A DNA stretch of 64,000 nucleotides from IMG/VR virus record IMGVR_UViG_3300023301_000008, positions 1-64,000 of that record. The stretch is one strand, 5' to 3'. How positions within the stretch are numbered: the stretch's first letter is position 1; every line of letters starts with the position of its first letter. Of the stretch, positions 903 to 40,635 are shown piece by piece. Below the pieces are notes generated by a model. That model was not told the DNA's origin. It worked only from the letters and a program-made list of their open reading frames with translations, and did not search any database. Position numbers and translations under genes: made by a program. Source of the stretch: a virus.

Positions 903-3743
903 ATGACAACAGACCTCAGCAACGTACAGCTACACTTCGTGGATAACCTTGAGAAAGCCATGGAGTTCAAGCGGTGGCTTGGACAGGCCCGACCCCTTAA
1001 CATGATCAGCATTGACATTGAGACCGGAGAAAAACCCGGAAACCACAAAGACGATGCACTATCTCCTTGGCACGGCAAGATTCGACTCATGCAGGTCGGA
1101 GACAGCGAGCAAGGTTGGGCCATCCCATGGGAAGACTGGGCCGGAGTCTTCTATGAAGCTATGGCCGACTTCAACGGCCCCATCGTATGCCACAACATCG
1201 CCTTCGAAGCCAAGTGGATGGCTGTACAATCCAAATGGAAAATGCCGTGGCACAACGCCCACGACACCATGATCATGTCCCAAATCATTAAGCCCAACCG
1301 TAGGTCACACGGTCTGAAACCACTAACTGCCGAGTTGGTAGACTCCAAAGCTGCAGCTATGCAGGCTGAGCTGGATAACGCCTTCTCCGAGAACGGATGG
1401 ACTTGGGGCACGGTCCCCGTCAATTTCAAATGGTACTGGATGTACGGAGCCCTCGACCCAGTAATCACGACACGTCTGGCACTAGAACATTTCTACAAGT
1501 ACGTCCAGCCCGGAGCCGTCTTTAGTGAGGCATACGAACTGGAGATGGCTGTCCGTAAGATCGCCACAACCATGGAGATCAACGGGGCCCGAGTAGACCT
1601 AGAGTATTCACAGAAAAAACTGGACGAACTGCAGCTATACACCGAAAGTGTGAAGGCATGGGGATTCAGTCGATACAACGCCTCCATCACGAGCAACATT
1701 CAGATGGTGAAGCTCTTCGAAAGCTTGGGTGGAGAGATCACTCAATTCACACCCAGCGGGGGCAAGTCCGTCAACAAGGACCAGATCGCAGTGTTTGCAC
1801 TCAGTGAGAACACTGAGGTTCGCACCCTAGCCGAAACGATCCTCAAACAGAGACAGGCCGATAAGCTCGCCTCCTCCTACTTCTCGAACTTCATAAGCGA
1901 CCAGATTGGCGGTGTACTGCACCCATCGATCAATATCATGGCCGCACGCACGAGCCGTATGTCAATCACTAAGCCCGCACTCCAGACTCTTCCTGCCGGG
2001 GACGCTGCTGTGCGCCGAGCGTTCGTTCCCCGGCATGAAGGTGAGGTTCTGATTACGTCTGACCTCGATCAGGTGGAGTTCCGACTCACCGCGTGCTTCT
2101 CAGAGGACCCCGCGCTTATAGAGCTGTTCCACGAGGCTGACCGTGTAGGTGGTGACGTGTTCACCTCGATCATGCGTCAGGTCTATCACGACAACACACT
2201 CGTGAAATCTGATCACAGAAGGAAACTCATTAAGGGTTGTGTGCCGCTAGACTCTGAAATTTTAACTAGACGTGGGTGGCTCACCTATGATCAGGTTGCT
2301 CCGGGTGATGAAACTTTGGGGTACAACATAGAGACGGGCCGGAGCGAGTGGACAACTGTAGAAGGTGTGCACACATTTGACGACTCAGACATCTACAAAT
2401 TATCTAACGGGCACAAATCATTCCTATGCACAGAGGACCATAGATGGATTGCGGATAACGGACGCTCCGGGGATCGCGCCTCAAAGGCAAAAATTATCCA
2501 CGCCGATGAGTTCATTGAGGGAAACAAGAGGCTAATACTAGCTGCAGGTGCTGAGGACGGCGCGTTTGATGTTTCGGACAGTGAGGCCCGTCTTCTGGGG
2601 TGGATTCTTGGTGATGGCTCGATCAAGCGCTCTAAATTTACTGGTGGGCCTTCACAGGCAGGTGGAGCCGGGGTGGGGTGTGCTGTGGAAATCTACCAGA
2701 CCAAGGCAGTAGGAGAGGCAGCAATTGATGTGCTAGCCCAGGAGTATGAGCACACCAGAATTGTCAATCCAAAAACAGGACAAGTAGTTTGGAGTTTCCA
2801 CCCAGACAAGATGCGAGACCTTTTGGGACGTGCTCAGATCGTAGACAAGAATACATTTGATCCTTGGGCACTTGCAGCAGGTCTTACGTTATCTGCCCGA
2901 AACCAGATGATTCGAGGACTAGATGAGGCTAACGGGAAAAATAAGACATCGCAAAAAACAAGGACCAAAATTGATGTAGCTATTGTCCAATCAGCGGCAA
3001 GCCCTGTGGCTGAGTTAGTGGTGGCTCTGGGGTACCTAACTGGGCAGTTCGCTAGGCAGACTACCTACGGCCCGGAGGGCAGCGCTTGGACAAAAAATCC
3101 GTACAAAGTTGTTTGGCATCAGCCCGGGAGAATGACTAATCAGCGTGCATCGCTGGAGTACGTGGAGACTGGCTCCGTGTGGTGTGTGACTACCGGTTCG
3201 GGAACTTGGACCATGCGCCAAAAGGACAAAGTTCCTGTCTTGACAGGAAATACAGTCTACGGTAAATTGTACGGAGCCGGAGTTGACAAGATGGCTGCAA
3301 CCTCCGGTGTCTCTTTTGGCGACATGAAAGAGGTGGTTGACGCATTTGACAACAACTATCCAGGAGTCAAGAGATTCCAAAAGCAGATTGAAAACGAGGG
3401 GGCCGCACGCCTCCGGGCTGAGGGTGAGGCGTATGTGCTCACAAAGACCGGTCGGAAGCTCCCTGCCGATGATGACCGTATCTACTCGCTCACCAACTAC
3501 AAGATTCAGGCCACCGCTGCGGAGGTATTCAAGCAGAACCTCGTAAAGCTGGATAAGCAGGGGCTCTCTGAGTACATGGTTGTCCCGGTGCACGACGAGA
3601 TCGTGCTGTCAGTACCTGAAGCCAACGCCGAAGATATTAAGGCGGTAGTCAAAGAGGCTATGACCTCTACCGAAGGCTGGGTTGTCCCCTTGACCGCTGG
3701 TGTGGACGGTCCATTCAAAAACTGGGGAGAATCCTATGAGTAG
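903..3743 (+). CDS. polA: Family A DNA polymerase with an in-frame intein
   Basis: Replicative DNA polymerase, 946 aa before splicing and 608 aa after removal of the intein at residues 446-783. The N-terminal 3'-5' exonuclease shows a DIE motif (about residue 40), HNxxFE (about 100) and YGALD (about 180). The polymerase part has motif A (SDLDQVEFRL), motif B (RRKLIKG joined to TVYGKLYG after splicing) and motif C (VHDE). There is no 5'-3' exonuclease domain, as in other phage Pol A enzymes. The intein sits inside motif B, so splicing is required for activity. The final codons overlap the resolvase start at 3736. Confidence 0.96.
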   Translation: MTTDLSNVQLHFVDNLEKAMEFKRWLGQARPLNMISIDIETGEKPGNHKDDALSPWHGKIRLMQVGDSEQGWAIPWEDWAGVFYEAMADFNGPIVCHNIAFEAKWMAVQSKWKMPWHNAHDTMIMSQIIKPNRRSHGLKPLTAELVDSKAAAMQAELDNAFSENGWTWGTVPVNFKWYWMYGALDPVITTRLALEHFYKYVQPGAVFSEAYELEMAVRKIATTMEINGARVDLEYSQKKLDELQLYTESVKAWGFSRYNASITSNIQMVKLFESLGGEITQFTPSGGKSVNKDQIAVFALSENTEVRTLAETILKQRQADKLASSYFSNFISDQIGGVLHPSINIMAARTSRMSITKPALQTLPAGDAAVRRAFVPRHEGEVLITSDLDQVEFRLTACFSEDPALIELFHEADRVGGDVFTSIMRQVYHDNTLVKSDHRRKLIKGCVPLDSEILTRRGWLTYDQVAPGDETLGYNIETGRSEWTTVEGVHTFDDSDIYKLSNGHKSFLCTEDHRWIADNGRSGDRASKAKIIHADEFIEGNKRLILAAGAEDGAFDVSDSEARLLGWILGDGSIKRSKFTGGPSQAGGAGVGCAVEIYQTKAVGEAAIDVLAQEYEHTRIVNPKTGQVVWSFHPDKMRDLLGRAQIVDKNTFDPWALAAGLTLSARNQMIRGLDEANGKNKTSQKTRTKIDVAIVQSAASPVAELVVALGYLTGQFARQTTYGPEGSAWTKNPYKVVWHQPGRMTNQRASLEYVETGSVWCVTTGSGTWTMRQKDKVPVLTGNTVYGKLYGAGVDKMAATSGVSFGDMKEVVDAFDNNYPGVKRFQKQIENEGAARLRAEGEAYVLTKTGRKLPADDDRIYSLTNYKIQATAAEVFKQNLVKLDKQGLSEYMVVPVHDEIVLSVPEANAEDIKAVVKEAMTSTEGWVVPLTAGVDGPFKNWGESYE
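2238..3251 (+). mobile_element. Intein with LAGLIDADG homing endonuclease in DNA polymerase
   Basis: A 338-residue intein begins with Cys (codon 2238) and ends with Thr-Gly-Asn, followed by a Thr +1 residue. Two LAGLIDADG-type motifs are visible (LLGWILGDGS and MIRGLDEANG), so the homing endonuclease looks intact. The insertion splits polymerase motif B, a highly conserved site as is usual for inteins. The penultimate residue is Gly rather than the common His. Confidence 0.93.
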
Positions 3744-16018: not shown

Positions 16019-16738
16019 ATGAGAATAAACAGTAATACCCCATCCAAAGAGATGGTGGAGGATGCTATTAGCAAATCAGAGACCATCAAGGAAGTTGGGC
16101 TACACCTCGGATACAAAGTCGGAGGCAGTCTAAACACTAGAGTGAAGTTCCTCGCAGAGCTTTACGAGCTGGACCTGCCCAAATTTGATTACCGCCTTGC
16201 TGCACAAAGAGTGGGCAGGTATAACAGGCTTTCAGACGAAGAGTGGTTCTCTCAAGGAACTTTCCGAAGTGGGGTACACACCAGGAAACGACTTGTGTCC
16301 CTCGGGGTTCCTGATATTTGTGCGGTTGTGGGATGTCCACTGAATCGTGGATTTTCGTGGCTAGGAGCTGATATAACCCCGCACGTAGATCACATAAATG
16401 GAGATAAATTTGACAACAGAAGAGATAATTTACAGTTTTTGTGCCCTAACTGCCACCAACAGACGGGAACCTGGGGGAACACTAGAAGAGGACCATCAAA
16501 CGTAGAAGTTAATGTCTGTATCGACTGTGCAGATGAAATCTCTGTAGGGTCCGTACGGTGTAGGACATGTGACTCGAAAAATAAGATAGTGACTGGACGG
16601 GCAAGTAGAATATCTTGGCCCAAGGATCAAGAGCTATTGGTCATGGTTGAAAGAGATGGGTGTCGGGGGACAGGAAAAATTCTTGGTGTCTCCGACAACT
16701 CAATAAAGAAAAGACTTAGAAGGCAGAATCTTCTTTGA
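16019..16738 (+). CDS. HNH homing endonuclease, 239 aa
   Basis: Free-standing HNH nuclease. The HVDHINGDKFDNR core and CPNCHQQTG zinc site lie at about residues 120-150, with two more Cys pairs (CIDC, CRTC) and a C-terminal helix-turn-helix (ILGVSDNSIKKRL). It lies inside the tRNA array, and tRNA-Pro begins two bases after its stop. TATACT ends six bases before the ATG, so it is probably leaderless. Related to the protein at 17835. Confidence 0.88.
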   Translation: MRINSNTPSKEMVEDAISKSETIKEVGLHLGYKVGGSLNTRVKFLAELYELDLPKFDYRLAAQRVGRYNRLSDEEWFSQGTFRSGVHTRKRLVSLGVPDICAVVGCPLNRGFSWLGADITPHVDHINGDKFDNRRDNLQFLCPNCHQQTGTWGNTRRGPSNVEVNVCIDCADEISVGSVRCRTCDSKNKIVTGRASRISWPKDQELLVMVERDGCRGTGKILGVSDNSIKKRLRRQNLL

Positions 16739-17834: not shown

Positions 17835-18521
17835 ATGAAAACTACGGACGAAGGTTTTGCAGAACTAGTAAAAGACAGCACTAGTTACGCCGATATGTTT
17901 AGAAAAATGGGGTGGTCCACTAATGGAACATCATACCGACACTCACGTAAGCGAGTGGATAGGTTGGGGCTAGACACCTCCCACTTTAGGCGCGGGACTC
18001 CGGCTGGAGCACGGAAAAAGAATCAAACTGATCGACTAGTTCTAGGAGGTTTGGGGGGTTCAATTAGTGGCAGAGTTTTGAAGGCTGGTCTTCTTCAGAT
18101 CGGTAGGCAATATGTGTGCGAAGGTGTATACGAGTTTTGTGGCAATCTGGGGGTGTGGCAGGGCCAGGAATTGACACTAGATGTTGACCACATAAATGGA
18201 GTTCGAAGTGATAATAGACCCGACAACCTAAGATTTTTATGCAAGAACTGTCACGGAATTACTGAGACATTCGGGTCAAAAAATAGAAAAATTCGACCCC
18301 CGTCACGTTGCCACTGTGGTAGAGTGAAGGGTTCTCGATCTGTGGAATGTTCAGTTTGTTATGTATCTTCTGGAAGAAACAGAGAGTCTCAAACTAAAAA
18401 AATTGATTGGCCCTCCAGGGAAGAACTTCTACTGAGGCTAAGCAGAAGTAGCTACCTAGCGGTATCAAAAGAGTTAGGAGTGTCAGACAATGCAATACGT
18501 AAGCACCTGAAAAACAATTAA
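17835..18521 (+). CDS. HNH homing endonuclease, 228 aa
   Basis: Paralogue of the protein at 16019: the DVDHINGVRSDNRPDN core and CKNCHG lie at about residues 115-145, with CHCG/CSVC zinc pairs and a C-terminal helix-turn-helix (ELGVSDNAIRKHL). It begins two bases after tRNA-Glu(CTC) and ends five bases before tRNA-Glu(TTC), so it probably arrived by homing between two Glu tRNA genes. No ribosome site is visible. Confidence 0.87.
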   Translation: MKTTDEGFAELVKDSTSYADMFRKMGWSTNGTSYRHSRKRVDRLGLDTSHFRRGTPAGARKKNQTDRLVLGGLGGSISGRVLKAGLLQIGRQYVCEGVYEFCGNLGVWQGQELTLDVDHINGVRSDNRPDNLRFLCKNCHGITETFGSKNRKIRPPSRCHCGRVKGSRSVECSVCYVSSGRNRESQTKKIDWPSREELLLRLSRSSYLAVSKELGVSDNAIRKHLKNN

Positions 18522-20884: not shown

Positions 20885-20943
20885 TATTGGAACGGAAAGC
20901 AACTTGTCCACTTGATGGGCTTGAAGTGTGTTATAATTATATA

Positions 20944-21483
20944 GTGGAAGATAAATGTAGATATCCTGAGTGTGGGAAAATTCCTGGAACTCGGCATCGT
21001 GGGCTGTGTCCGTATCACTATGGACACTGTAAAAACCTTGGAACACTGGAGGAGCACGCGAGACCGTCAAGAACTGGAAAAACCCACTTATTGACGAATG
21101 TAGATGAAAAAACTAGACACGGAACTTGTTCAGTGTGTGGGGCCACATCAGTATTCCTAAAAAGTAACAGCAGATGGTATTGCTCCAGCACCAGGAACTC
21201 TACGGACCGTAGACCATATAACGTGGCGTACTACTACAAGAACAAGTACGGACTGGAGCCAGACGGCAAACAAAAGCTTGCTGAATCCCAAGACAACAAA
21301 TGTCCAATTTGTGACACAGAAATTGACTTGACACGGACAAAATCTCACATCGATCATAACCACGAAACTGGAGTGATTCGAGGGGTTTTGTGTAACACGT
21401 GTAATATGGGTTTAGGGCTGTTCTACGAGAATAGAAATCTTCTACTAAAAGCTGTGGCTTACTTAGATAAGCACGAAAATTGA
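20944..21483 (+). CDS. Endonuclease VII-like His-Me nuclease, 179 aa
   Basis: The C-terminal half matches recombination endonuclease VII: CPIC, then SHIDHNHETGVIRGVLCNTCN. The N-terminal half has extra zinc pairs (CRYPEC, CSVC). I prefer start GTG 20944, because TATAAT ends exactly six bases before it, the leaderless spacing used here; an in-frame TTG at 20887 is an alternative. Placed among tRNAs, it is probably a homing endonuclease rather than the resolvase. Confidence 0.83.
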   Translation: MEDKCRYPECGKIPGTRHRGLCPYHYGHCKNLGTLEEHARPSRTGKTHLLTNVDEKTRHGTCSVCGATSVFLKSNSRWYCSSTRNSTDRRPYNVAYYYKNKYGLEPDGKQKLAESQDNKCPICDTEIDLTRTKSHIDHNHETGVIRGVLCNTCNMGLGLFYENRNLLLKAVAYLDKHEN

Positions 21484-27081: not shown

Positions 27082-27552
27082 ATGGGAATGATTATCCACC
27101 AAACAGGAGACCTGTTCACAACTGACGCACGTGCTATTGGGCATGGTGTTAATGTCGATGGCATTATGGGCTCAGGCATTGCTTTGCAGTTCAAAGAACG
27201 CTTCCCCGATATGCACAATGAGTACAAAAAGCTCTGCAAGTCGGGTGAACTGGAGCCTGGAGGCCTTATGGTCTACGAACAGGCTCCGGGGCTGTATATT
27301 TACAACCTCGCGTCACAGGATCGCCCGGGGGCTAACGCCTCCTACGAATGGCTGTCTGAGAGCTTCAGACGTGCGCTGGGTGTTGCCGAGGCTGATGGGT
27401 TGAAAGAGATTGCTCTCCCACGGATTGGTTCTGGTATCGGTGGGCTCAATGAGCGTCAGGTTGAGGGCATGATTGCAGACATCATTGCCCCTACCCGGGT
27501 GAACGTAGAAATTTGGTCCCCCCCTCAAAAGGACATTTATGTGGTAATCTAG
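27082..27552 (+). CDS. Macro-domain ADP-ribose-binding protein, 156 aa
   Basis: Complete macro domain. GHGVNVDGIMGSGIA at residues 17-31 and LPRIGSGIGGL near 113 are the ADP-ribose loops. The pattern resembles the ALC1/TARG1/DarG-type macro domains, which remove ADP-ribose from proteins or DNA, or process ADP-ribose-1''-phosphate. In a phage it could reverse a host ADP-ribosylating defence (for example DarT) or recycle RNA-repair by-products. The substrate is not readable. Confidence 0.85.
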   Translation: MGMIIHQTGDLFTTDARAIGHGVNVDGIMGSGIALQFKERFPDMHNEYKKLCKSGELEPGGLMVYEQAPGLYIYNLASQDRPGANASYEWLSESFRRALGVAEADGLKEIALPRIGSGIGGLNERQVEGMIADIIAPTRVNVEIWSPPQKDIYVVI

Positions 27553-28361: not shown

Positions 28362-28400
28362 CTCCTATTTTACAGGTTTTCCTGCAATTTTAAGAAAGAC

Positions 28401-28429
28401 TTGCGCCCGTGAAAGTTTCGTGCTAGAGT
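28401..28429 (+). promoter_or_regulatory. Promoter of structured-RNA array and Ro operon
   Basis: TTGCGC (28401-28406), 17 bases, TAGAGT (28424-28429). The predicted start near 28436 lies just before the first RNA unit. Confidence 0.75.
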
Positions 28430-28462
28430 CTTACTTAGACGTTACAACTTAACAGAGAATTC

Positions 28463-28555
28463 GGTGTACGAGCCGGATGACAGACCGTTATCAAATCCGA
28501 CTAATAATCAGACACGGCGAAAGCCAATCGGTCTTCAATAACATGCTCGTTCACC
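28463..28555 (+). ncRNA. Y-RNA-like unit 1
   Basis: Ends GGTGTACGAGC (28463-28473) and GCTCGTTCACC (28545-28555) pair at 10 of 11 positions. Inside, GTTAT (28487-28491) pairs with ATAAC (28538-28542), leaving an asymmetric loop CGGATGACAGACC opposite AT. The interior has a GGC-GAAA-GCC hairpin but no T arm. It shares the end/loop layout with the three following units. Confidence 0.6.
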
Positions 28556-28562
28556 ACAAGCT

Positions 28563-28670
28563 TAGTGGGCCGGATGTTTTCGGTTATCTCTCACATAGAA
28601 GCGAAGGCACGTTCGATTCGTGCGACGGTCTGGCTACCTAGTTACCCCGATGGCAATTACATGCCCACTA
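28563..28670 (+). ncRNA. Y-RNA-like unit 2 with T arm
   Basis: TAGTGGGC (28563-28570) pairs perfectly with GCCCACTA (28663-28670). The internal motif GCCGGA...CGGTTATC is opposite ATTAC-AT. It contains a T arm (GCACG TTCGATT CGTGC), then GACGGT with a weaker partner ACC..GTT, so the acceptor-like stem comes after the T arm. Confidence 0.6.
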
Positions 28671-28677
28671 TAACAAC

Positions 28678-28809
28678 TTGACGAGCCGGAGATTGTTCGG
28701 TTATCTATGGAACAGAAGAGGTTGTCGGTTCGAGTCCGGCAACACCCTTAGGGGTGTTTAGCTCAATCGGCAGAGCACTAAAACCCGAGTGTCATAACAT
28801 GTTCGTCAA
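28678..28809 (+). ncRNA. Y-RNA-like unit 3: permuted tRNA with tetraloop
   Basis: Ends TTGACGAGC (28678-28686) and GTTCGTCAA (28801-28809) pair over nine bases, and GTTAT (28700-28704) pairs with ATAAC (28794-28798). Inside: T arm GTCGG TTCGAGT CCGGC (28724-28740), AACACCC (28741-28747), loop TTAG, GGGTGTT (28752-28758), then D arm TAGCTCAATCGGCAGAGCA. So the acceptor stem is closed by a tetraloop and the ends sit at the anticodon position, as in YrlA-type Y RNA. Confidence 0.72.
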
Positions 28810-28819
28810 TAACCTTTCG

Positions 28820-28987
28820 GTGCGAGCCGAAGAGAATTGGTTACCCATGGAAGCCAGAGGTACGGTCGCTTGACGGCCCACTGCACTCTGGACTAGGCTG
28901 AGCTAGGCTCTCAGATATTGTGCGTAGAAACGCTCAAATAGCTGGAGGAAGTACCAGCACTTCCGATTTTCACACACATGTTCGCAC
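28820..28987 (+). ncRNA. Y-RNA-like unit 4
   Basis: GTGCGAGC (28820-28827) pairs with GTTCGCAC (28980-28987, one wobble). GAGCCGAA...GGTTACC matches the shared 5' motif, and CAC-AT-GTTCG the 3' motif. Inner CCAGAG/CTCTGG and GGTCG-CTTGA-CGGCC helices are visible. It ends 76 bases before the Ro gene start. Confidence 0.5.
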
Positions 28988-29063
28988 TACAACTTCGCAG
29001 CCAAAGATGTCTGCACAAATATGTTCGTCACAGGGCGAGCCGGAAAAGAAAGAAGACAAAGAA

Positions 29064-29627
29064 ATGACAGATTCACTTAAGACAGTACGCACCCGTGCCG
29101 CATCCCAGCTTGATCCTGCAAAAGCTCCTCAGACTGTTCGGACCCGCGAGGACCAGGTGCAGAACAACGCAGGCGGTTTTGTATTTTCCGTCAACGACAT
29201 GGAACGCGCCAAGCGCTTCCTCATTCTAGGTTCTGAGAAGAACTTCTACACTTCTGGGCAGAAGCTCTCGAAGGAGAACGCTGGTGTCATCACCAAGCTG
29301 GCTTCCGACGCTGAGGCTGGCATCCAGCTCGTGGACCTGATCACGGAGATTTCTGTGGCCGGTCGCGCTCCCAAGCAGAACCCTGCTCTCTTCGCTCTGG
29401 CTATTGCAGCTTCGAGTCCCGAAGAGTCGGTACGTTCGTATGCCCTCGACAAGTTGACTGATGTTGCGCGAACCGCTACACATTTGTTTATCTTCGTAGG
29501 GTATGTTGAACAGTTCCGTGGTTGGGGCCGTGCACTTCGTCGTGCTGTTGGAGGTTGGTATCTGTTCCACGAAGGACGTGGGTCTCTTGCATACCAAGTG
29601 ACAAAGTATCGTAGTCGTGTGGTATAA
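29064..29627 (+). CDS. Ro/TROVE protein, N-terminal part, 187 aa
   Basis: The first section of the TROVE HEAT-repeat ring of a Ro60-type RNA-binding protein: QNNAGGFVFSVND, RFLILGSEKNFY and ending LAYQVTKYRSR are family hallmarks. Ro rings bind Y RNA outside and misfolded RNA 3' ends in the hole. The frame stops where Ro proteins normally continue to the W(T/S)HRD motif; that continuation is the next gene. Start ATG 29064 suits the family N-terminus. A GCGAGCCGGA motif like those of the RNA units lies 28 bases upstream. Confidence 0.82.
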   Translation: MTDSLKTVRTRAASQLDPAKAPQTVRTREDQVQNNAGGFVFSVNDMERAKRFLILGSEKNFYTSGQKLSKENAGVITKLASDAEAGIQLVDLITEISVAGRAPKQNPALFALAIAASSPEESVRSYALDKLTDVARTATHLFIFVGYVEQFRGWGRALRRAVGGWYLFHEGRGSLAYQVTKYRSRVV

Positions 29628-29693
29628 TGGAATCTTTCTGATTCTCATTTTCGAAAATTATGCTCACTAGTTGTGAGCCGAAAGGAATAAAAA

Positions 29694-30764
29694 ATGACAA
29701 ACACTGCTTGGACACACCGTGATGTCTTACGACTATCACATCCCAACATTACGGACGATAATCTGGTGAATTGGATGACCGGCAAGGATTTTGATCTAGA
29801 TACCCTACCTGCTCAGACTAAGGGGTATGAGCTTGCCAAGAGCCCTGGCGCAGACGTGCCTGCACTCATTCGTGAGTACGGGCTGAGCTGGGAGATGATC
29901 CCGACTCAGGCACTCAACACGCCTGCCACGTGGGATGCACTGATGGACGGTAACGTTCCTCTCGGTGCGCTGATCCGTCAGCTCCCGCGTCTGACTCGTA
30001 TTGGGTGGCTTGCACCTATGAATGCGAACACGGCTTTGGTCGTGACTCGTCTCACCGATACAGTCCAGTTGGAGAAGGCTCGTATTCACCCGTTGAATGT
30101 TCTGTCCGCGATGAAGACATATTCCGCAGGCGGCGCGACGTACGGGTACAGCAGCTCTGCACGTAAGCCGCAGATTCCGTACACTCCAGTGCGTGAGATC
30201 ACAGATGCGTTGGATGCCGCGTTCTACTTGGCGTTCAAGTCAGTCACCCCCGCCAATAAGCGGACGATGGTTGGTGTGGACGTGTCAGGATCGATGGCCT
30301 CGTACATCGGTGACAGCCCGCTATCCGCAGCAGAAGTTGCTGCAGCTATGGCGCTCGTCACTGTGGCTACCGAGCCGATGGTTGTGGTCTATGGGTTCTC
30401 CCACCAGATCGCAGAACTGCCGATCAGCCCGCGTCAGCGTCTTGACGATGTTCTGGACCTTACGAGGGATCGTAACTTTGGTGGTACGGACGCAGCTCTT
30501 CTAGTGCGTACGGCATCTGCGAAGAACATTCTCGTGGATACGTTCATCGTGATCACTGACAACGACACCTGGGGTATGAGACACGTGTATGCCGAATTGG
30601 AGAAGTACCGCGCCAAGACTGGAATTTTGGCCAAGATGATCGTCTTGGCCTGCACCGCAAGCGAGTTCACTGTTGCGGACCCGAGGGATGATCTGAGCCT
30701 AGATATTGCGGGCATGGACTCTGCAGTGCCGCAACTGATTGCTGAGTTCAGTAGAGGGGATTAA
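29694..30764 (+). CDS. Ro/TROVE protein, C-terminal part with vWA domain, 356 aa
   Basis: Starts MTNTAWTHRDVLRLSHPN, which is the point where an intact Ro protein would follow the upstream gene. HEAT repeats run to about residue 190. A von Willebrand A domain follows with a full MIDAS: DVSGS (about 201), GTDA (about 264), ITDND (about 285). AAAGGA precedes the ATG. It is in the same frame as the upstream part, but two stop codons (29625 and 29688) separate them. Confidence 0.85.
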   Translation: MTNTAWTHRDVLRLSHPNITDDNLVNWMTGKDFDLDTLPAQTKGYELAKSPGADVPALIREYGLSWEMIPTQALNTPATWDALMDGNVPLGALIRQLPRLTRIGWLAPMNANTALVVTRLTDTVQLEKARIHPLNVLSAMKTYSAGGATYGYSSSARKPQIPYTPVREITDALDAAFYLAFKSVTPANKRTMVGVDVSGSMASYIGDSPLSAAEVAAAMALVTVATEPMVVVYGFSHQIAELPISPRQRLDDVLDLTRDRNFGGTDAALLVRTASAKNILVDTFIVITDNDTWGMRHVYAELEKYRAKTGILAKMIVLACTASEFTVADPRDDLSLDIAGMDSAVPQLIAEFSRGD

Positions 30765-30816
30765 CAAATAGAATTCACCCTGTTTTATTTTTAAAAAAGG
30801 TTCTTAGAACTTTGCC

Positions 30817-32829: not shown

Positions 32830-34338
32830 TCAACGTGTTTTCACATATCTAGATTTTCCGGCATCCCATACTCTGAACATGCCGTTGAGGGCTGCAAGCT
32901 CTTTTTCTGAGAGGCCTGGGATAGTTTTGAGGTCGGGGTCTCGATTGAATCTGTCTTTGCGGTAGTTGAACTTGTGCTCCCTACGGCGTGCCCCTCGTCT
33001 CAGGTATGTGTAGTCCGGAGGCAGAGTCTTATCTAGAACAAATCCTGTCTTCAAGTAGAGGTCTCCGGTGGAGACTCTAAGATCAGCGAAAGTGATCCAC
33101 TCATCCACCTCGTACAAGTTCTCTACGTATTTCATTAGTTTGGGCATCCCTCCCGGCACTCTGGCAGATGTGGCGTATCGTTCTAGATAGAATGCTCCAT
33201 TAAGTTTTGATTTTTGTTTGGCAACAAGAACAGCAACATCTTCTCCTTCCGGACTCACCAGCATTGCGTATACAGTGCCTCTTGCTGCCCCCTGTATGTG
33301 GTTGGCCTGTAGAAACGTGCTGGCGCGGTCATAGGACACAGACTCCATCGAACATTTTCTTGTGTTTATTTTAGAGTCTGTGCTCATGTTCAGCTTGTGT
33401 TTAATCATACGTTCTACTGCCTCTCTGTGGTATAGCCACTCGTCTTCCCAGATTTGAATAAGTTGGACACCTGAAGCTTCACACGCCCTTAGTCGATTTG
33501 CGTGGCTATGTCTGTCTTTATATTTTTCGCTGTGCCAGAAAATCCCATCTAACTCAAAAGCCTGTCTAGTTTCTGGAATATAGACATCCAACTCATAGGG
33601 GGGCACCACACCGGTAACACTATTTTGTGCGGTCGGCTGGAGTGTGTGGATAAATGAGTACAACTCCTGTTCAATCTTTGAGGTTCCAGTGGTATTGCAG
33701 TGTCTACATCCTTGCCCGGACGCACGGTGGTAGACTCCGGTGGACCAGACTCTGCTGCACATGTTACAGCGCCATTTGGCTCTGTACTTGGCAGACACCA
33801 TATAATCCTCGGGGTTCCCGTGATTGTCCTCGTGCCACTCTGAGGCCAGCTCTGGAAATTGATGTAGAAGAGAATTTTTACGAGATGGGTCAACCTTAAT
33901 TCCAGCGCAAAACGGACATCCGGATTTTGTTCGATTTCTTTGGTGAGGTGTGGCCTCCCAGGAGTGTTCTGGGTTGTTTTTGCAAAGCCACCACACTTTT
34001 TTTGAGTGGTTTGCAAGAATCTCAGTTGATCTTGTAGGGTTGGTCTTGGAGTACTCTTTATTAAGTTCTGGGTTAATGTCCGCCAATGAGTTGAACCCGG
34101 ATAGAACTTTTCGCATGGGTGTGGAGCAGTACGGGCATCCAAAGCCCCTGATGCGGTCTTTGGGGGTGGCCCTCCATGTGTGGTAGTGTCCACTCTCTGG
34201 GTCTGTATGGGACCACTCTAGGAGTTGGTGCGTACCGGGACGCACAGATGTGGTGTGGCTGTACTCTACTGCCTCACGAGCCAGGTCTGGGAACAGGTCG
34301 GCTACGCTTCCCCCAGGGAGAGGAATTTTTGATGTCAT
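32830..34338 (-). CDS. EDxHD (I-Bth0305I-like) homing endonuclease, 502 aa
   Basis: The N-terminal 220 residues hold several treble-clef zinc modules (CPYC, CPFC, CNMC, CRHC). The nuclease core ELDVYIPETRQAFELDGIFWHSE (about residues 250-272) has the Vsr-like EDxHD layout. The C-terminal 200 residues are shared with the protein at 34569-36029. TATACT ends six bases before the ATG. A selfish element beside essential helicase and nrd genes. Confidence 0.85.
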   Translation of the reverse strand: MTSKIPLPGGSVADLFPDLAREAVEYSHTTSVRPGTHQLLEWSHTDPESGHYHTWRATPKDRIRGFGCPYCSTPMRKVLSGFNSLADINPELNKEYSKTNPTRSTEILANHSKKVWWLCKNNPEHSWEATPHQRNRTKSGCPFCAGIKVDPSRKNSLLHQFPELASEWHEDNHGNPEDYMVSAKYRAKWRCNMCSRVWSTGVYHRASGQGCRHCNTTGTSKIEQELYSFIHTLQPTAQNSVTGVVPPYELDVYIPETRQAFELDGIFWHSEKYKDRHSHANRLRACEASGVQLIQIWEDEWLYHREAVERMIKHKLNMSTDSKINTRKCSMESVSYDRASTFLQANHIQGAARGTVYAMLVSPEGEDVAVLVAKQKSKLNGAFYLERYATSARVPGGMPKLMKYVENLYEVDEWITFADLRVSTGDLYLKTGFVLDKTLPPDYTYLRRGARRREHKFNYRKDRFNRDPDLKTIPGLSEKELAALNGMFRVWDAGKSRYVKTR

Positions 34339-34380: not shown

Positions 34381-34572
34381 CTACGCGTACAGGTGTGTCG
34401 TCTCACATGCGGAGCAGTAGTAGCCCACCAGATTTTCGCGCTTCATGTAGCCGCGTTTCTCCGTCTGGGTGATCGAGTTGAGGTTATTGAATGACCCCCC
34501 GCACGTCTCACACGTGTCGGGGGTTTCAAACAATACGACAGGTTTAATACTTTCTTGATCTTCATTGTTCAC
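34381..34572 (-). CDS. Small zinc-finger protein, 63 aa
   Basis: CETC (about residue 21) and CSAC (about 54) pairs form one likely zinc site. Its start overlaps the stop of the upstream endonuclease gene (ATGA). Function unknown. Confidence 0.7.
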   Translation of the reverse strand: MNNEDQESIKPVVLFETPDTCETCGGSFNNLNSITQTEKRGYMKRENLVGYYCSACETTHLYA

Positions 34573-36029
34573 TGTAGGTTTCCTCTTTCTGTTTTAGTGT
34601 ACCTTATTTTACCGGCATCCCATACTCTGTAGAGCCCATTCAAAGTAGCCAGCTCCCGCTCTGTTAGTTCGGGTTGGTAGAGTAGATCATTATCGAGTCT
34701 GAATCTCTTTTTACGGTAATTGAATTTGTGGACACGTGTCTTTCTATTGGATAGGTATGTGTAGTCTGGGGGAAGAATTTTGTCTACTTGGAATCCAGTT
34801 GATTCATATAACCCCCCATCTGTTGTGGCTAGGTCTGCAAATGTGACCCAAGTCTTAACGTCCTCCACTTTGGCTATGTGGGCCATCAGTTTAGTGAAGC
34901 CTCCCCGGACTAGACCCACCGTGGCGTACCTATCGATGATGTGCTCTCCTGATGAAGACACTCTCCGGGCCAGTACGGCCCTGAGGACCCCGTCTGAGGT
35001 TTTTAGTCCATAGTACCGTGCAACTCTCGGCGGCCCCTGGATGTGGTTTATCATTAAGAATCGTCTCGCTTCTAGAGCAGAGACTATCCCGGGCACACAC
35101 TTATTGGCAGATACCCTCTCTCCTGAGAAATTTCCAGTAAGCATTAGTATTCTGTTTTCTATGAGGGATCGGTTTCTGTCCCAATCATCGCTCCATATTT
35201 GAAGAAGTGTGATATTTTTGTCTCGGCACTCCTGGTACTTGTCGTGGTGGTATCCTCTAGGACGGGTGCCTTCTTTGTGCCACCACAGGCCGTTGAATTC
35301 AATTGCCAAGTTGTGATTTGGTATCCAGATGTCCAGCTCTTTGGTTCGCAGTTGGGTTCTGTCTCTGGGTTGGTGTTCAATGTTGTGGTGGGTGAGGAAG
35401 GCCGACAGTTCCTCCTCGGGGCGACTGATAGAGTGTGCACACGTTGGACATCCTGTAGATTGGGATGTTCTCATATCTGGAGACGCTAACCACGTGTGCT
35501 TTTTGTTGCATGACCAGTCTACTTTTTGGTTGTGCCCTGCTACAACATCTTGAGGAGTCATTCGGCTGTCTGCCCAGTCTTTGGCTACTTCTGGGTGAGA
35601 TGTGCCTAGATCGTTGATTCCCACAACAACCTGTCTGTTGTAACACACAGCGCATTTTTGATTTCCGGCCACTCTATTGTTTACGGTGGCCTCCCACTCA
35701 TGTCCGCAGGAGCCCAGCCACCATGCCTTGGTTCGGTGTCCTTTTCGGATAGTCTCTGGACCATAGAGATTCTTTGTGGGGTGCCATTCATCGGCTATGC
35801 TGGGGTTTGTGGTGAGTAGGTCATTGAATCCTGCCCAGGTGGCCTTATTGGCACAGTATGGACACTTTGAACCACGGACGCGCGGTCCGGGCCAGCTCTC
35901 CCACTCGTGGTTTAGGGCACACACCCACCAGTATTTTTTGTGTCCAAATGGGCTAATTGTGTTTAACGTGGCAGGCAGATTTTTAGTGGGGTGCCACTCT
36001 AACAATAGTGATTCGGGGATAATAACCAT
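34569..36029 (-). CDS. EDxHD homing endonuclease, second copy, 486 aa
   Basis: Four zinc-ribbon repeats (CPYC, CAVC, CPTC and W-rich spacers), then ELDIWIPNHNLAIEFNGLWWH (about residues 225-246) as nuclease core. The C-terminus parallels the protein at 32830 (RVWDAGK..RY.KT). I prefer ATG 36029, since TACCAT ends six bases before it; an in-frame ATG at 36053 is possible. Confidence 0.84.
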   Translation of the reverse strand: MVIIPESLLLEWHPTKNLPATLNTISPFGHKKYWWVCALNHEWESWPGPRVRGSKCPYCANKATWAGFNDLLTTNPSIADEWHPTKNLYGPETIRKGHRTKAWWLGSCGHEWEATVNNRVAGNQKCAVCYNRQVVVGINDLGTSHPEVAKDWADSRMTPQDVVAGHNQKVDWSCNKKHTWLASPDMRTSQSTGCPTCAHSISRPEEELSAFLTHHNIEHQPRDRTQLRTKELDIWIPNHNLAIEFNGLWWHKEGTRPRGYHHDKYQECRDKNITLLQIWSDDWDRNRSLIENRILMLTGNFSGERVSANKCVPGIVSALEARRFLMINHIQGPPRVARYYGLKTSDGVLRAVLARRVSSSGEHIIDRYATVGLVRGGFTKLMAHIAKVEDVKTWVTFADLATTDGGLYESTGFQVDKILPPDYTYLSNRKTRVHKFNYRKKRFRLDNDLLYQPELTERELATLNGLYRVWDAGKIRYTKTERGNLQ

Positions 36030-36062
36030 ATACTGATGGTACCATAAAGTCACCGGATGCGG

Positions 36063-37260: not shown

Positions 37261-40200
37261 TCACAGCTCGCACGCAACACAGTTCGAGAGCTGAGTACCT
37301 TCCATCGGGTTCTGGTTTACACGGGTGTAGTAGATGGTCTTAAGGCCTTTCTTCCACGCGTAGATGTGCGCTTTAGTGATGTCACGAGTTGTGGCATCGC
37401 CGTTGATGAACAGTGTGCAGGAGAGGCCCTGGTCTACGTGTTCGGTTGCGGCAGCATAGACATCGATCAACGCCTCTGGGGAGAGGTGGTACGAGTCTCG
37501 GTAGAACTCTCGGTTGTCTTCGTTCATTCCGAAGGCCGGGTAGTAGATGCGTCCGAGCGCACCCTCCTTACGAATCTCAATCTGTGCTGAGATCGGGTGG
37601 ATGGATGCGGTGGAGTGGTTGATGTATGAGATCGAACCGGTCGGAGGCACCGCTTGAAGGTATCCGTTGTAGATGCCGTACTTAGCCACCACGTCCCGAA
37701 GAAGGGTCCATACCTCGACCCCGGGGACCGTAATTCCATACTTCTTGAATAGCTCCTGCACTCTCTCAGTTTTTGGTGCCCAACTCTGTGAGATGTACTT
37801 CTCAAAATACTCCCCAGAGGCGTACTTACTTGATTCAAATCCGTCAAAGGTCTCTCCACGTTCTTTCGCAATGGTGGCTGATGCTCTCACGGCATAGTAG
37901 GTAATGGCCGCAAAATACGCTGAAGTAAAGTCCACAGCCTCTGGAGAGTCGTAATGTATTTTCTCGGAGGCCAAAAATCCTGCAAGGTTCATCTGACCGA
38001 GGCCGATGGCGTGTGTCATGGCGTTTCCTTGTGCAATCGAAGGCACGGCTGACACATTGGAGAGGTCGGATACAGCGGTAAGTGCTCGAACAGCGATGTG
38101 TACCGTGTTTCCTAGGTCACCACCGTATATCGACTTGGCAATGTTCATAGAGCCTAGGTTGCAAGAGATGTCTCGACCAACGTGATCGTATGAGCCATCC
38201 TCATTGAAAGTGGAGGCGGTGTTGACCTGAAGAATCTCTGAGCAGAGGTTAGACATGTTGATGCGACCCTTCAGATTGGAGGCCCGGTTAGCAGTGTCCT
38301 CGAAGAGAAGGAACGGATAGCCGGAGGACATAGCCAACTCTGAGACGACCTCGAAGAATCGAAGTGCCTTGATCTTGGTCTTCCTGATCCTAGAGTCCTC
38401 TACCCATGCACGGTAGTGCTCGGTCACAGAGAGGTCGGTCATGGGCTTACCCATAACGCGCTCCACATCATAGGGCGAGAAGAGGTACATATCCTCGTCG
38501 TTCTTAGCCAAGTGGAAGGTGATATCCGGAATGACCACGGCGAGGGAGAGCGTTTTAATTCTGCTCTTCTCGTCCGCGTTTTCGCGCTTGGTGTCTAGGA
38601 ACGTCAGAATGTCCGGGTGGTGCGCGTTCAAGTAGACCGCACCGGCACCGGGGCGAGCCCCGAGTTGGTTAGAGTACGAGAAAGCATCCTCAAGCATCTT
38701 CATAACTGGCACGACACCGGAAGACTGGCCCTCGATCTTTTTTATGGGGGCACCGGCTTCACGAAGATTGGTGAGCGTAAACGCCACACCCCCACCGCGC
38801 TTAGACATTTGGAGCGCAGCATTATGAATGTTCGAAATTGATTCCATGTTGTCTTCAGTACGTACGAGAAAACAGTTGTGAACAACATACCCATTTGCAA
38901 CGTAGGTGTGATCATCCTCAACCTCCAAGTTGAAGACCTCTACAGGACTCTCTAGGGCTGTGTGGTCCACACTCCGCACCCTGTACATGGGGTGTCCGTC
39001 TATCACGCGCTTATGTACTGTGGACTGGTGGCTGTCAGTAATTCGGAACTTCTCAATGGTCTTGTCTACCGCATAGATATACTCAGTGTTTCTTCCGACT
39101 CCCTGTGTGATAATCAACTGGGCGGTAGGGTTTCCTGCCTGATTAGTATAAATTCTAGTTGTTGGGGCTAGGCCTGTTCGAAGGGCGGTATCAAAAAGTT
39201 GCTGAACTAGGGCTGGGTTTACGAGGTCCATAATTACCCCAGCCTTGACTGTTGTGCCGTCTCCCCGCATGGCTCCAATCAGGAGCCCCCACAGGAAATC
39301 AGCAGGAGCGTGAGTGTAAATTTCCGGTAGGGTTTTTCTATCAAAACCCGTACCAATGGTGTTTAGGAAGAAGTCCCCGACAGCTTGCGACCAGACAGCC
39401 ACATTGGTGGACCCGTCCTTGTTCACGTTTATGGTAGGGGTGAGGCCGAAAATCTCCTCAGACAAGGCAATGACATCCTCAATGTATTTCTCCTCATGGG
39501 ACCCAAAAGTAAATCGTACTCCCTTCACTGCGCCGTTGGTTCGATGTGTGTATCCCTCAGCCAGGTAGTATCCTATAAATCTTCCGAACTTCTCGTCAAG
39601 TTGCACGACATCCCGTACAGGCCGAGACTGTAGTGAGGTGGTGTGGCCTTTTCTTTTGTTGTTTTTAGCGTCCACTGTACCTACGGCCAGTACTCCTGCG
39701 TCTAGGCTATATCGAGTGCTGTTTCTCAGGTACGAGGACACCTGTATTTGAGTATCCTCTTCGAGTGTGGTGTCCACCCCCAAAGCCACATAGTCTCCGG
39801 GCTTTACATCCTGGAGGGGCACCCATTTCAGATTTTCGGTGGCTCCGTCTCCCAAGTGTACAGACGCTACGTCCCGGGGGGTAGATACCAGTACCGGGTG
39901 CTCCCCTGTGCCACGAAGGGGTCGGATGTTCCCACTCACAGCGAGAGTGACCATGAAGTCGGTCTCATATCTGGAGCCTACAGAGGTTACGGACATGAAT
40001 CGACCAGCATGTGTCAGTACTTTGTCTCCCGTTCGAATTTTCTCGATAGGTACAGAGCCGTTTTCGGTCGTAATCGGAGTCCCCGCTTCGAAGCACGAGA
40101 CCAATTCTCCTCGCTGAGCCTTGGCCGCGTTGAGGAACGTGGGGGTTGCGGGCTGGTAACGACCAGTCATGATTTCGTCTACAAGGGACTCTGCAGTGGA

Positions 40201-40635
40201 GACATCTCCACGAGCGAGATAGAGCGCGGTGGCCGAAACTCGGTCCTCGAATCGCTCAAGATATCGCTTACCATCGAAGGTTTTCAGGGCATACGTGGTG
40301 TAGAACTTGACCGCTCCGAGGAGTCCTGGGAATCGAAACTTGTACGCGTAGGAGAGCTTGTATATGTCCTTGACATCCTCAAAGTTGTACTGGTCGAAGA
40401 TGGCCTTCTCGTAGTACTCATTGTCGAATAGGAAGTCCAGCTTCTCTTCAAGGGTGTGAAAAAAGACCGTAGAAGGATTAATGTTCGTCAAGAAGTATTG
40501 ACGTGCGGACTCTCTGTCCATGTGGAGCTGGAGGGTCTTTTTCTCTTCATCGGCGTAGAAGTATGACATCGCGTTCAAGGCGAAGTAGTCGGACTCCCCG
40601 TGCGATGTGGTGCTTACGTCCTCAATGATTGTCAT
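37261..40635 (-). CDS. nrdE: Class Ib ribonucleotide reductase large subunit with intein, 1124 aa
   Basis: Reduces NDPs to dNDPs. The spliced protein would be 717 aa, normal for NrdE. Recognisable parts are RGELVS joined to CFLVRTEDNMESI, SKRGGGVA, NLCSEI and the C-terminal CVACEL redox pair. The intein occupies residues 181-587 at a conserved active-site Cys. The start overlaps the end of nrdI by 14 bases. Confidence 0.95.
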   Translation of the reverse strand: MTIIEDVSTTSHGESDYFALNAMSYFYADEEKKTLQLHMDRESARQYFLTNINPSTVFFHTLEEKLDFLFDNEYYEKAIFDQYNFEDVKDIYKLSYAYKFRFPGLLGAVKFYTTYALKTFDGKRYLERFEDRVSATALYLARGDVSTAESLVDEIMTGRYQPATPTFLNAAKAQRGELVSCFEAGTPITTENGSVPIEKIRTGDKVLTHAGRFMSVTSVGSRYETDFMVTLAVSGNIRPLRGTGEHPVLVSTPRDVASVHLGDGATENLKWVPLQDVKPGDYVALGVDTTLEEDTQIQVSSYLRNSTRYSLDAGVLAVGTVDAKNNKRKGHTTSLQSRPVRDVVQLDEKFGRFIGYYLAEGYTHRTNGAVKGVRFTFGSHEEKYIEDVIALSEEIFGLTPTINVNKDGSTNVAVWSQAVGDFFLNTIGTGFDRKTLPEIYTHAPADFLWGLLIGAMRGDGTTVKAGVIMDLVNPALVQQLFDTALRTGLAPTTRIYTNQAGNPTAQLIITQGVGRNTEYIYAVDKTIEKFRITDSHQSTVHKRVIDGHPMYRVRSVDHTALESPVEVFNLEVEDDHTYVANGYVVHNCFLVRTEDNMESISNIHNAALQMSKRGGGVAFTLTNLREAGAPIKKIEGQSSGVVPVMKMLEDAFSYSNQLGARPGAGAVYLNAHHPDILTFLDTKRENADEKSRIKTLSLAVVIPDITFHLAKNDEDMYLFSPYDVERVMGKPMTDLSVTEHYRAWVEDSRIRKTKIKALRFFEVVSELAMSSGYPFLLFEDTANRASNLKGRINMSNLCSEILQVNTASTFNEDGSYDHVGRDISCNLGSMNIAKSIYGGDLGNTVHIAVRALTAVSDLSNVSAVPSIAQGNAMTHAIGLGQMNLAGFLASEKIHYDSPEAVDFTSAYFAAITYYAVRASATIAKERGETFDGFESSKYASGEYFEKYISQSWAPKTERVQELFKKYGITVPGVEVWTLLRDVVAKYGIYNGYLQAVPPTGSISYINHSTASIHPISAQIEIRKEGALGRIYYPAFGMNEDNREFYRDSYHLSPEALIDVYAAATEHVDQGLSCTLFINGDATTRDITKAHIYAWKKGLKTIYYTRVNQNPMEGTQLSNCVACEL
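38875..40095 (-). mobile_element. Intein with LAGLIDADG homing endonuclease in nrdE
   Basis: A 407-residue intein begins CFEAGTPI and ends VANGYVVHN before Cys+1 (the catalytic-region Cys of NrdE). LAGLIDADG motifs are FIGYYLAEG and LLIGAMRGDG. The His-Asn terminus is canonical, so splicing is likely intact. Confidence 0.93.

Follow-up and report, generated by a model that had tools for sequence, protein, structure and literature searches.

A phage Ro gene divided into two cistrons within the HEAT ring, with a Ro-leader-type hairpin in the gap

In the stretch of viral DNA analyzed here (the window, 64,000 nt in length, which is a 64,366-base virus record minus 366 bases), our comparisons support the conclusion that the Ro gene is divided, inside the region encoding the HEAT ring, into two complete-looking genes. 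Fission of Ro is known so far from this one phage record. The explanation that we favor, and consider probable, is fission into two cistrons with noncovalent reassembly of the products, in which a Ro-leader hairpin in the start region would place the gene under feedback from Ro.

Geometry of the split and comparison with intact Ro genes

The features at the split are as follows.

29064..29627, plus strand: Ro-N, 187 aa, N-terminal part of the TROVE/HEAT ring, with C-terminal end ...LAYQVTKYRSRVV (open reading frame, Pfam and alignment to human Ro60)
29619..29705, plus strand: inserted segment, 87 nt compared with 3 nt (a single codon) in intact Ro genes (tblastn junction geometry)
29694..30764, plus strand: Ro-C, 356 aa, remainder of the TROVE/HEAT ring plus vWA domain (MIDAS), with N-terminal start MTNTAWTHRDVLRLSHP (open reading frame and Pfam)

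Ro-N ends in TKYRSR-VV-stop, and Ro-C begins with MTNT-AWTHRD. Both lie in one frame, at an ATG-to-ATG distance of 630 nt; the stop of Ro-N is a TAA at 29625-29627, the intergenic gap comprises 66 bases (29628-29693), and a second in-frame TAA lies inside the gap at 29688-29690. These coordinates bear out a sequence-only reading of the same DNA, in which the two parts shared a frame and were separated by 66 bases with two stops. Whereas Ro60 and Rsr are single continuous polypeptides, two in-frame stops separate the halves here, and we therefore refer to the gene as a split Ro. As in splits of the 43A/43B type, an adjacent pair of cistrons covers what is one gene in relatives, and the divider is non-coding. 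An ATG that overlaps the Ro-N stop opens a four-codon frame (MESF-stop) within the gap, at window positions 29627-29641.

We used tblastn to align the two halves against 50,697 phage records; Ro-C matched in 338 of these and Ro-N in 340. Among the matches listed, 60 for each half and a spread of 60, the N alignment stops at residue 185, and the C alignment opens at residues 2-6, mostly at residue 5; in A3Wally, Cashline and BearBQ, which are among the records listed for both halves, 3 nt lie between the two matches. For counts of the junction, the locus set comprised 16 annotated phage loci, 160 viral contig loci, L001 and L002 (178 in total, with several contigs present twice); with the window added and three loci holding Ro-C alone subtracted, there are 176 places with both halves. 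The junction is exactly 3 nt (N end at 185, C start at 5) in 140 of the 176, a number that includes L054 and L011, in which the junction itself is contiguous, and nearly all of the remaining places deviate merely in alignment end points. The comparison with intact phage Ro genes thus confirms the split, and the terminal motifs of the two parts, which had been read as adjoining in intact Ro, are normally one codon apart in the relatives examined.

The 69-nt break is absent from all viral loci compared except the window and L002, which is the window's own record, and no clean split was found in other Ro loci among those examined. Locus L164 carries four additional codons, in frame, at the junction, and L122 has a contiguous junction with a long insert downstream of it. 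Among loci from bacterial genomes, 74 of 80 are contiguous without a stop; L205, L221, L245, L247 and L252 deviate in other respects, and an N match is missing from L248. Two scans of viral contigs for start-codon patterns gave 199 loci among the matches listed, of which L313 alone matches Ro, and it is contiguous. A megablast search of 28400-30800 against phages returned no matches. The closest intact relative, L099, is syntenic, with tRNA-Cys/Arg/Ile/Ala, Y-like units and a leader followed by an unbroken Ro.

Leader hairpin, Y-RNA-like array and start region

The features upstream of the two start codons are as follows.

28465..29012, plus strand: Y-RNA-like array, located between tRNA-Ala and Ro-N, with a YrlA core in one unit
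29015..29051, plus strand: hairpin element before Ro-N, stem 29023-29029 / 29034-29040 (R1 match)
29620..29628, plus strand: putative extended -10, TGGTATAAT, a perfect consensus match only, overlapping the Ro-N stop
29654..29689, plus strand: Ro-leader-type hairpin before Ro-C, stem 29662-29667 / 29673-29678 (R1 match and fold)
29681..29686, plus strand: Shine-Dalgarno-like AAAGGA, 7 nt 5' of the Ro-C ATG (from the sequence)

The perfect hairpin GCTCAC-TAGTT-GTGAGC that had been noticed in the gap is present at 29662-29678, and it is the same element as the one before Ro-N and before some intact Ro genes. Several Ro starts share a leader layout consisting of AT, a stem strand beginning with G, a loop of a few nucleotides, a stem strand ending with C, CGA or CGG, and a ribosome-binding site. 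Between -160 and +60 of the Ro start, a strict descriptor of this layout occurs in 8 of 129 distinct loci, compared with ~0.9 expected from its frequency across all loci on both strands; the eight include the window itself and L040, which looks spurious. With a looser hairpin scan, the count is 15 among 122 viral loci, including atypical cases.

From the Ro leaders of ten other records or loci, excluding the window, we built a covariance model (R1). Two loci with a similar hairpin aligned out of register (L116 and L012) were dropped before model building and pair counts, and L099 (irregular stem) and L108, L178 and L015 (atypical), all from the 15 loci, were also left outside R1. On both strands of the 64-kb window, the best match is the gap hairpin (26.7 bits, E 7.5e-6); next in order are the Ro-N leader (24.8 bits, E 2.9e-5), a unit boundary of the Y array at 28793-28836 (18.2 bits, E 0.0035) and a fourth match at 12.1 bits (E 0.26). 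The flanks of the hairpin had been likened to the unit boundaries of the RNA array, and the third match confirms this; the notion of an array-like scar alone is not upheld, as R1 identifies the gap element with the Ro leader element.

Among 90 viral loci outside the training set, R1 gave 19 matches of at least 13.1 bits, of which 2 immediately precede the assigned Ro start (L099 and L165, the latter with an uncertain start codon), 12 lie upstream within 1.5 kb and 5 lie elsewhere. Among 80 bacterial loci it gave 32 matches of at least 13.2 bits, with 4 directly before the Ro start, 10 upstream and 18 elsewhere; the bacterial Ro starts with a leader hairpin are those of L219, L204, L232 and L233. 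The leader element is therefore recurrent, yet most of the Ro genes examined do not carry it. In the aligned hairpins, 98.3% of cells are paired, and both partners have changed in 4 of the 6 pairs; because the sequences were selected for having a hairpin, this covariation figure is biased, and we relied instead on position and on the R1 matches outside the training set. A direct copy of the Ro-N leader was also considered as the source of the gap and rejected: the local alignment is suggestive only, being equaled by 12 of 1000 shuffles and exceeded at six places in the window.

The Y RNA foot is the place where Ro binds Y RNA. In the array, RF02553 (YrlA) matches partially at 28717-28779, with 35.1 bits (E 1.3e-5) against a gathering score of 69, and the match covers the core only. 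Four array units fold with closing stems of their own (z -1.56, -0.01, -2.44 and -2.35), one example of a unit foot being GACGAGC-CGG...ACATG-TTCGTC. YrlA-like cores, all below the gathering score, precede Ro in 4 of 8 loci searched (L099, L007, L010 and L003). The leader hairpin consists of both foot strands in reverse order, closed by a loop; it resembles a Ro-binding Y RNA foot closed at the other end, with a ribosome-binding site on its 3' flank. Likenesses to YrlA are the tRNA-like core in the adjacent array and, in the array units, a closing stem followed by CGA/CGG, which the leader hairpin shares; unlike YrlA, the leader hairpin is short, carries its loop on the other end of the stem and is located in an mRNA leader. 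A figure legend in PMC11277228 places Ro60 at the stem bulge of Y RNA.

With its extended -10, hairpin, AAAGGA and ATG, the gap reads as a probable start region rather than a bypass element. We infer promoter activity from the match at the Ro-N stop, where the first letters of the inserted segment are GTGGTATAAT. The best -35-like match by eye is GTGACA at 29598-29603, 19 nt from the -10 and thus poorly spaced, and the TGGTATAAT site is absent from the list returned by a promoter scan of the window. In the window there are 4 exact copies of the extended -10 TGNTATAAT, compared with 0.73 expected, and 1 of 100 shuffles reached 4; for the looser motif TGNTANANT, the counts are 33 on the plus strand of the window and 8 on the minus strand. 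Several TGNTANANT sites have TTGAC or TTGC ~17 nt upstream. From the putative transcript start to the ATG (29629-29693), the gap RNA folds with z -2.93; only 1 of 200 shuffles folds better, and most of the Shine-Dalgarno sequence is paired. Over the larger stretch 29600-29720, the fold does not stand out (z -0.68).

Under the explanation that we consider probable, splitting of the Ro gene would have produced two cistrons and two polypeptides, and Ro-N and Ro-C would reassemble non-covalently into one Ro ring. Translation of Ro-C would start from its own leader, with its probable promoter, hairpin, Shine-Dalgarno sequence and ATG. Because the hairpin is like a Y RNA foot and adjoins the ribosome-binding site, we hypothesize negative feedback on both cistrons: assembled Ro that is free of Y RNA would bind the leader hairpin and shut off translation, so that both subunits would be under a common control that Y RNA relieves. 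Extended beyond the window, the proposal becomes tentative, and we hold it with less than even confidence; it states that, in some phages and bacteria, a mimic of the Y RNA foot that is closed by a loop and carries the ribosome-binding site may allow Ro to repress its own translation, with Y RNAs titrating Ro, and that here the operator would be intragenic and Ro would consist of two subunits that meet at the Y RNA-binding surface and are both under feedback. The leader hairpin offers a direct and cheap way to ask whether Ro controls its own synthesis via a Y RNA mimic. Literature searches, with partial coverage, found no paper on split Ro or on leader-mediated control of Ro.

It is rather unlikely that fission into two cistrons occurred but that the hairpin, as a by-product of the Y array to which Ro does not bind, has no role beyond insulating or processing the transcript or controlling translation by folding. 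The likeness of the hairpin to array unit boundaries would fit such a role, and pairing of the Shine-Dalgarno sequence in the leader fold might suffice alone; however, other phages and a few bacteria carry the same short-loop hairpin immediately ahead of the Ro start codon, and the R1 matches with E <0.1 in the window are only the two Ro starts and the one array boundary.

Integrity of the halves and site of the break

Pfam TROVE (PF05731) scores above its cut-off in both halves. Ro-N matches profile positions 1-158 of 442 (E 8.3e-13), and Ro-C matches TROVE positions 278-351 of 442 together with positions 1-164 of 165 of vWA_Ro60 (PF25045; 157.7 bits), including DVSGSM, which fits the MIDAS motif DxSGS. 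In an alignment of 45 Ro proteins, we defined near-invariant columns as those at least 90% conserved among the other proteins; the window retains 38 of 38 such columns in the N half and 60 of 66 in the C half, and L099 retains 37 of 38 and 60 of 66. The C half is on the low side, as in L099, with 6 of the 44 other proteins retaining an equal or smaller share. The presence of complete conserved motifs in each part, as originally read, is thereby substantiated, retention being about equal to that of the closest intact relative. From these motifs the sequence-only reading had argued for stable splitting; the soundness of the halves stands, whereas stability does not follow, the arrangement being found in no other viral locus compared.

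An AlphaFold2 model of the two halves read through as one chain predicts a complete Ro fold (pLDDT 89.1, pTM 0.87). Confidence falls below a pLDDT of 50 at residues 189-194 and 206-212, which belong to the inserted segment, and at 360-365; it is also low over the first 20 residues. The model aligns with Xenopus Ro 2i91_A over 505 residues (Z 40.6), and Foldseek matches it to Xenopus Ro 1yvp_B with E 4.2e-35. In the same model, the break falls in a HEAT-ring loop between helices 172-181 and 218-225. The predicted read-through fold is only consistent with reassembly of the halves.

Residues 27-185 of Ro-N align with residues 11-174 of human Ro60, and residue 185 corresponds to residue 174 in Xenopus Ro as well. 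Mutations of Ro residues K170/R174 are known. Counting on from the alignment, the equivalent of human His187 is H16 of Ro-C, and the break lies 13 residues earlier. In a review, H187 is described as essential for Y RNA contact on the outer surface of the ring (PMC4030889), and an H187S mutant is described as lacking binding to mouse Y3 (PMC11277228). The protein is like Ro60/Rsr (Xenopus 1yvp/2i91, human 9nen and D. radiodurans Rsr 2nvo) and the intact phage 'Ro-like RNA binding proteins' in domain order, conserved residues, predicted fold and adjoining Y-RNA-like genes; unlike in these proteins, the chain is divided after the equivalent of human R174. A phage Ro dimer structure is available as 9l5y. 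A natural split across the Y RNA-binding surface provides a two-piece system in which to study the binding of Y RNA and of misfolded RNA by Ro.

The condition of the halves bears on recent pseudogenization, in which an insertion broke Ro and the halves are drifting. This is a single case, and broken Ro genes exist, with frameshifts in L011 (about 2525-2820), L031 (about 2450) and L054 (about 2409); we nevertheless regard pseudogenization as improbable, as both halves retain near-invariant residues about as fully as the nearest intact relative does, the 543 codons of the two halves contain no further stops, and a good ribosome-binding site and the leader element precede the second half. Judged from the sequence, the break of Ro may be very recent. 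The three frameshifted loci belong to phage SM23 and two viral contigs, and the frameshifts are either real or sequencing errors.

An assembly or sequencing artifact at the junction is very improbable. The junction is known from one assembly, a single metagenomic virus record; the sole second contig that matches (L001) begins within Ro-C, short of the junction, and a 21-mer from the gap had no match in the viral contigs scanned, a scan that may omit records very near the window. Against an artifact, the inserted sequence is non-random: its score marks it as a Ro leader element, and it sits exactly where two sound halves meet.

Bypassing, other split genes and neighboring genes

Translational bypassing needs a matched pair of take-off and landing codons. 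Programmed bypassing of the T4 gene 60 kind, in which ribosomes would hop the gap to give one Ro chain, had been raised as a speculative alternative and is hardly credible: the parts share one frame and a hairpin lies within the gap, but a shared frame is expected by chance in one of three cases, none of the codons before the stop (TAT CGT AGT CGT GTG GTA) is identical to one before GCT TGG (AAA ATG ACA AAC ACT), the sequence between the second stop and AWTHRD holds no matching landing codon, and bypassing would not need a Shine-Dalgarno sequence, an ATG and a Ro-type leader belonging to Ro-C.

In T4-like phages, PMC2988022 describes genes that are split, in some cases by homing endonucleases and in one case by non-coding sequence between the cistrons; in gene 43A/43B of phage 44RR the divider is an untranslated intercistronic segment. 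The same article describes the split nrdA of Aeh1 (mobE) as fully functional and reports that 43A/43B of phage 25 gives an active enzyme. The split Ro is like these genes (nrdA of Aeh1, 43A/43B of 44RR and the topoisomerase gene 60) in that one conserved gene is present as two coding regions; unlike them, it involves a different gene, and its divider is short, carries a Ro-leader-type hairpin and contains no endonuclease gene. Deinococcus Rsr and Y RNA are described as acting with PNPase (PMC7790460).

An intein in the gap is ruled out by the stops and the 66-base length, and the gap is too short for the gene of which a homing endonuclease remnant would be part. At the gathering threshold, the Rfam matches in the window are all tRNAs; for 28363-29720, with E values of up to 5 admitted, YrlA is the sole match, and therefore no known intron family there. 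Given candidate endonucleases nearby, a past endonuclease insertion is possible.

Two DUF4379 zinc-finger proteins are encoded near Ro (32830-34338 and 34569-36053, minus strand), one with a weak MTES_1575 nuclease match, and judged from these domains it is possible that they are free-standing homing endonucleases. The ribonucleotide reductase large subunit (37261-40635, minus strand) has an intein-like insert (Hint_2, LAGLIDADG_3), and DNA polymerase A (903-3743, plus strand) is interrupted by an insert that looks intein-like by eye. The record is tRNA-rich, with 33 tRNA genes in the window based on ARAGORN; on the plus strand of the tRNA region, 16019-16738, 17835-18521 and 20887-21483 encode two HNH-type proteins and an endonuclease VII-like protein. 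A macro-domain protein (27082-27552, plus strand) adjoins the tRNA/Ro region.
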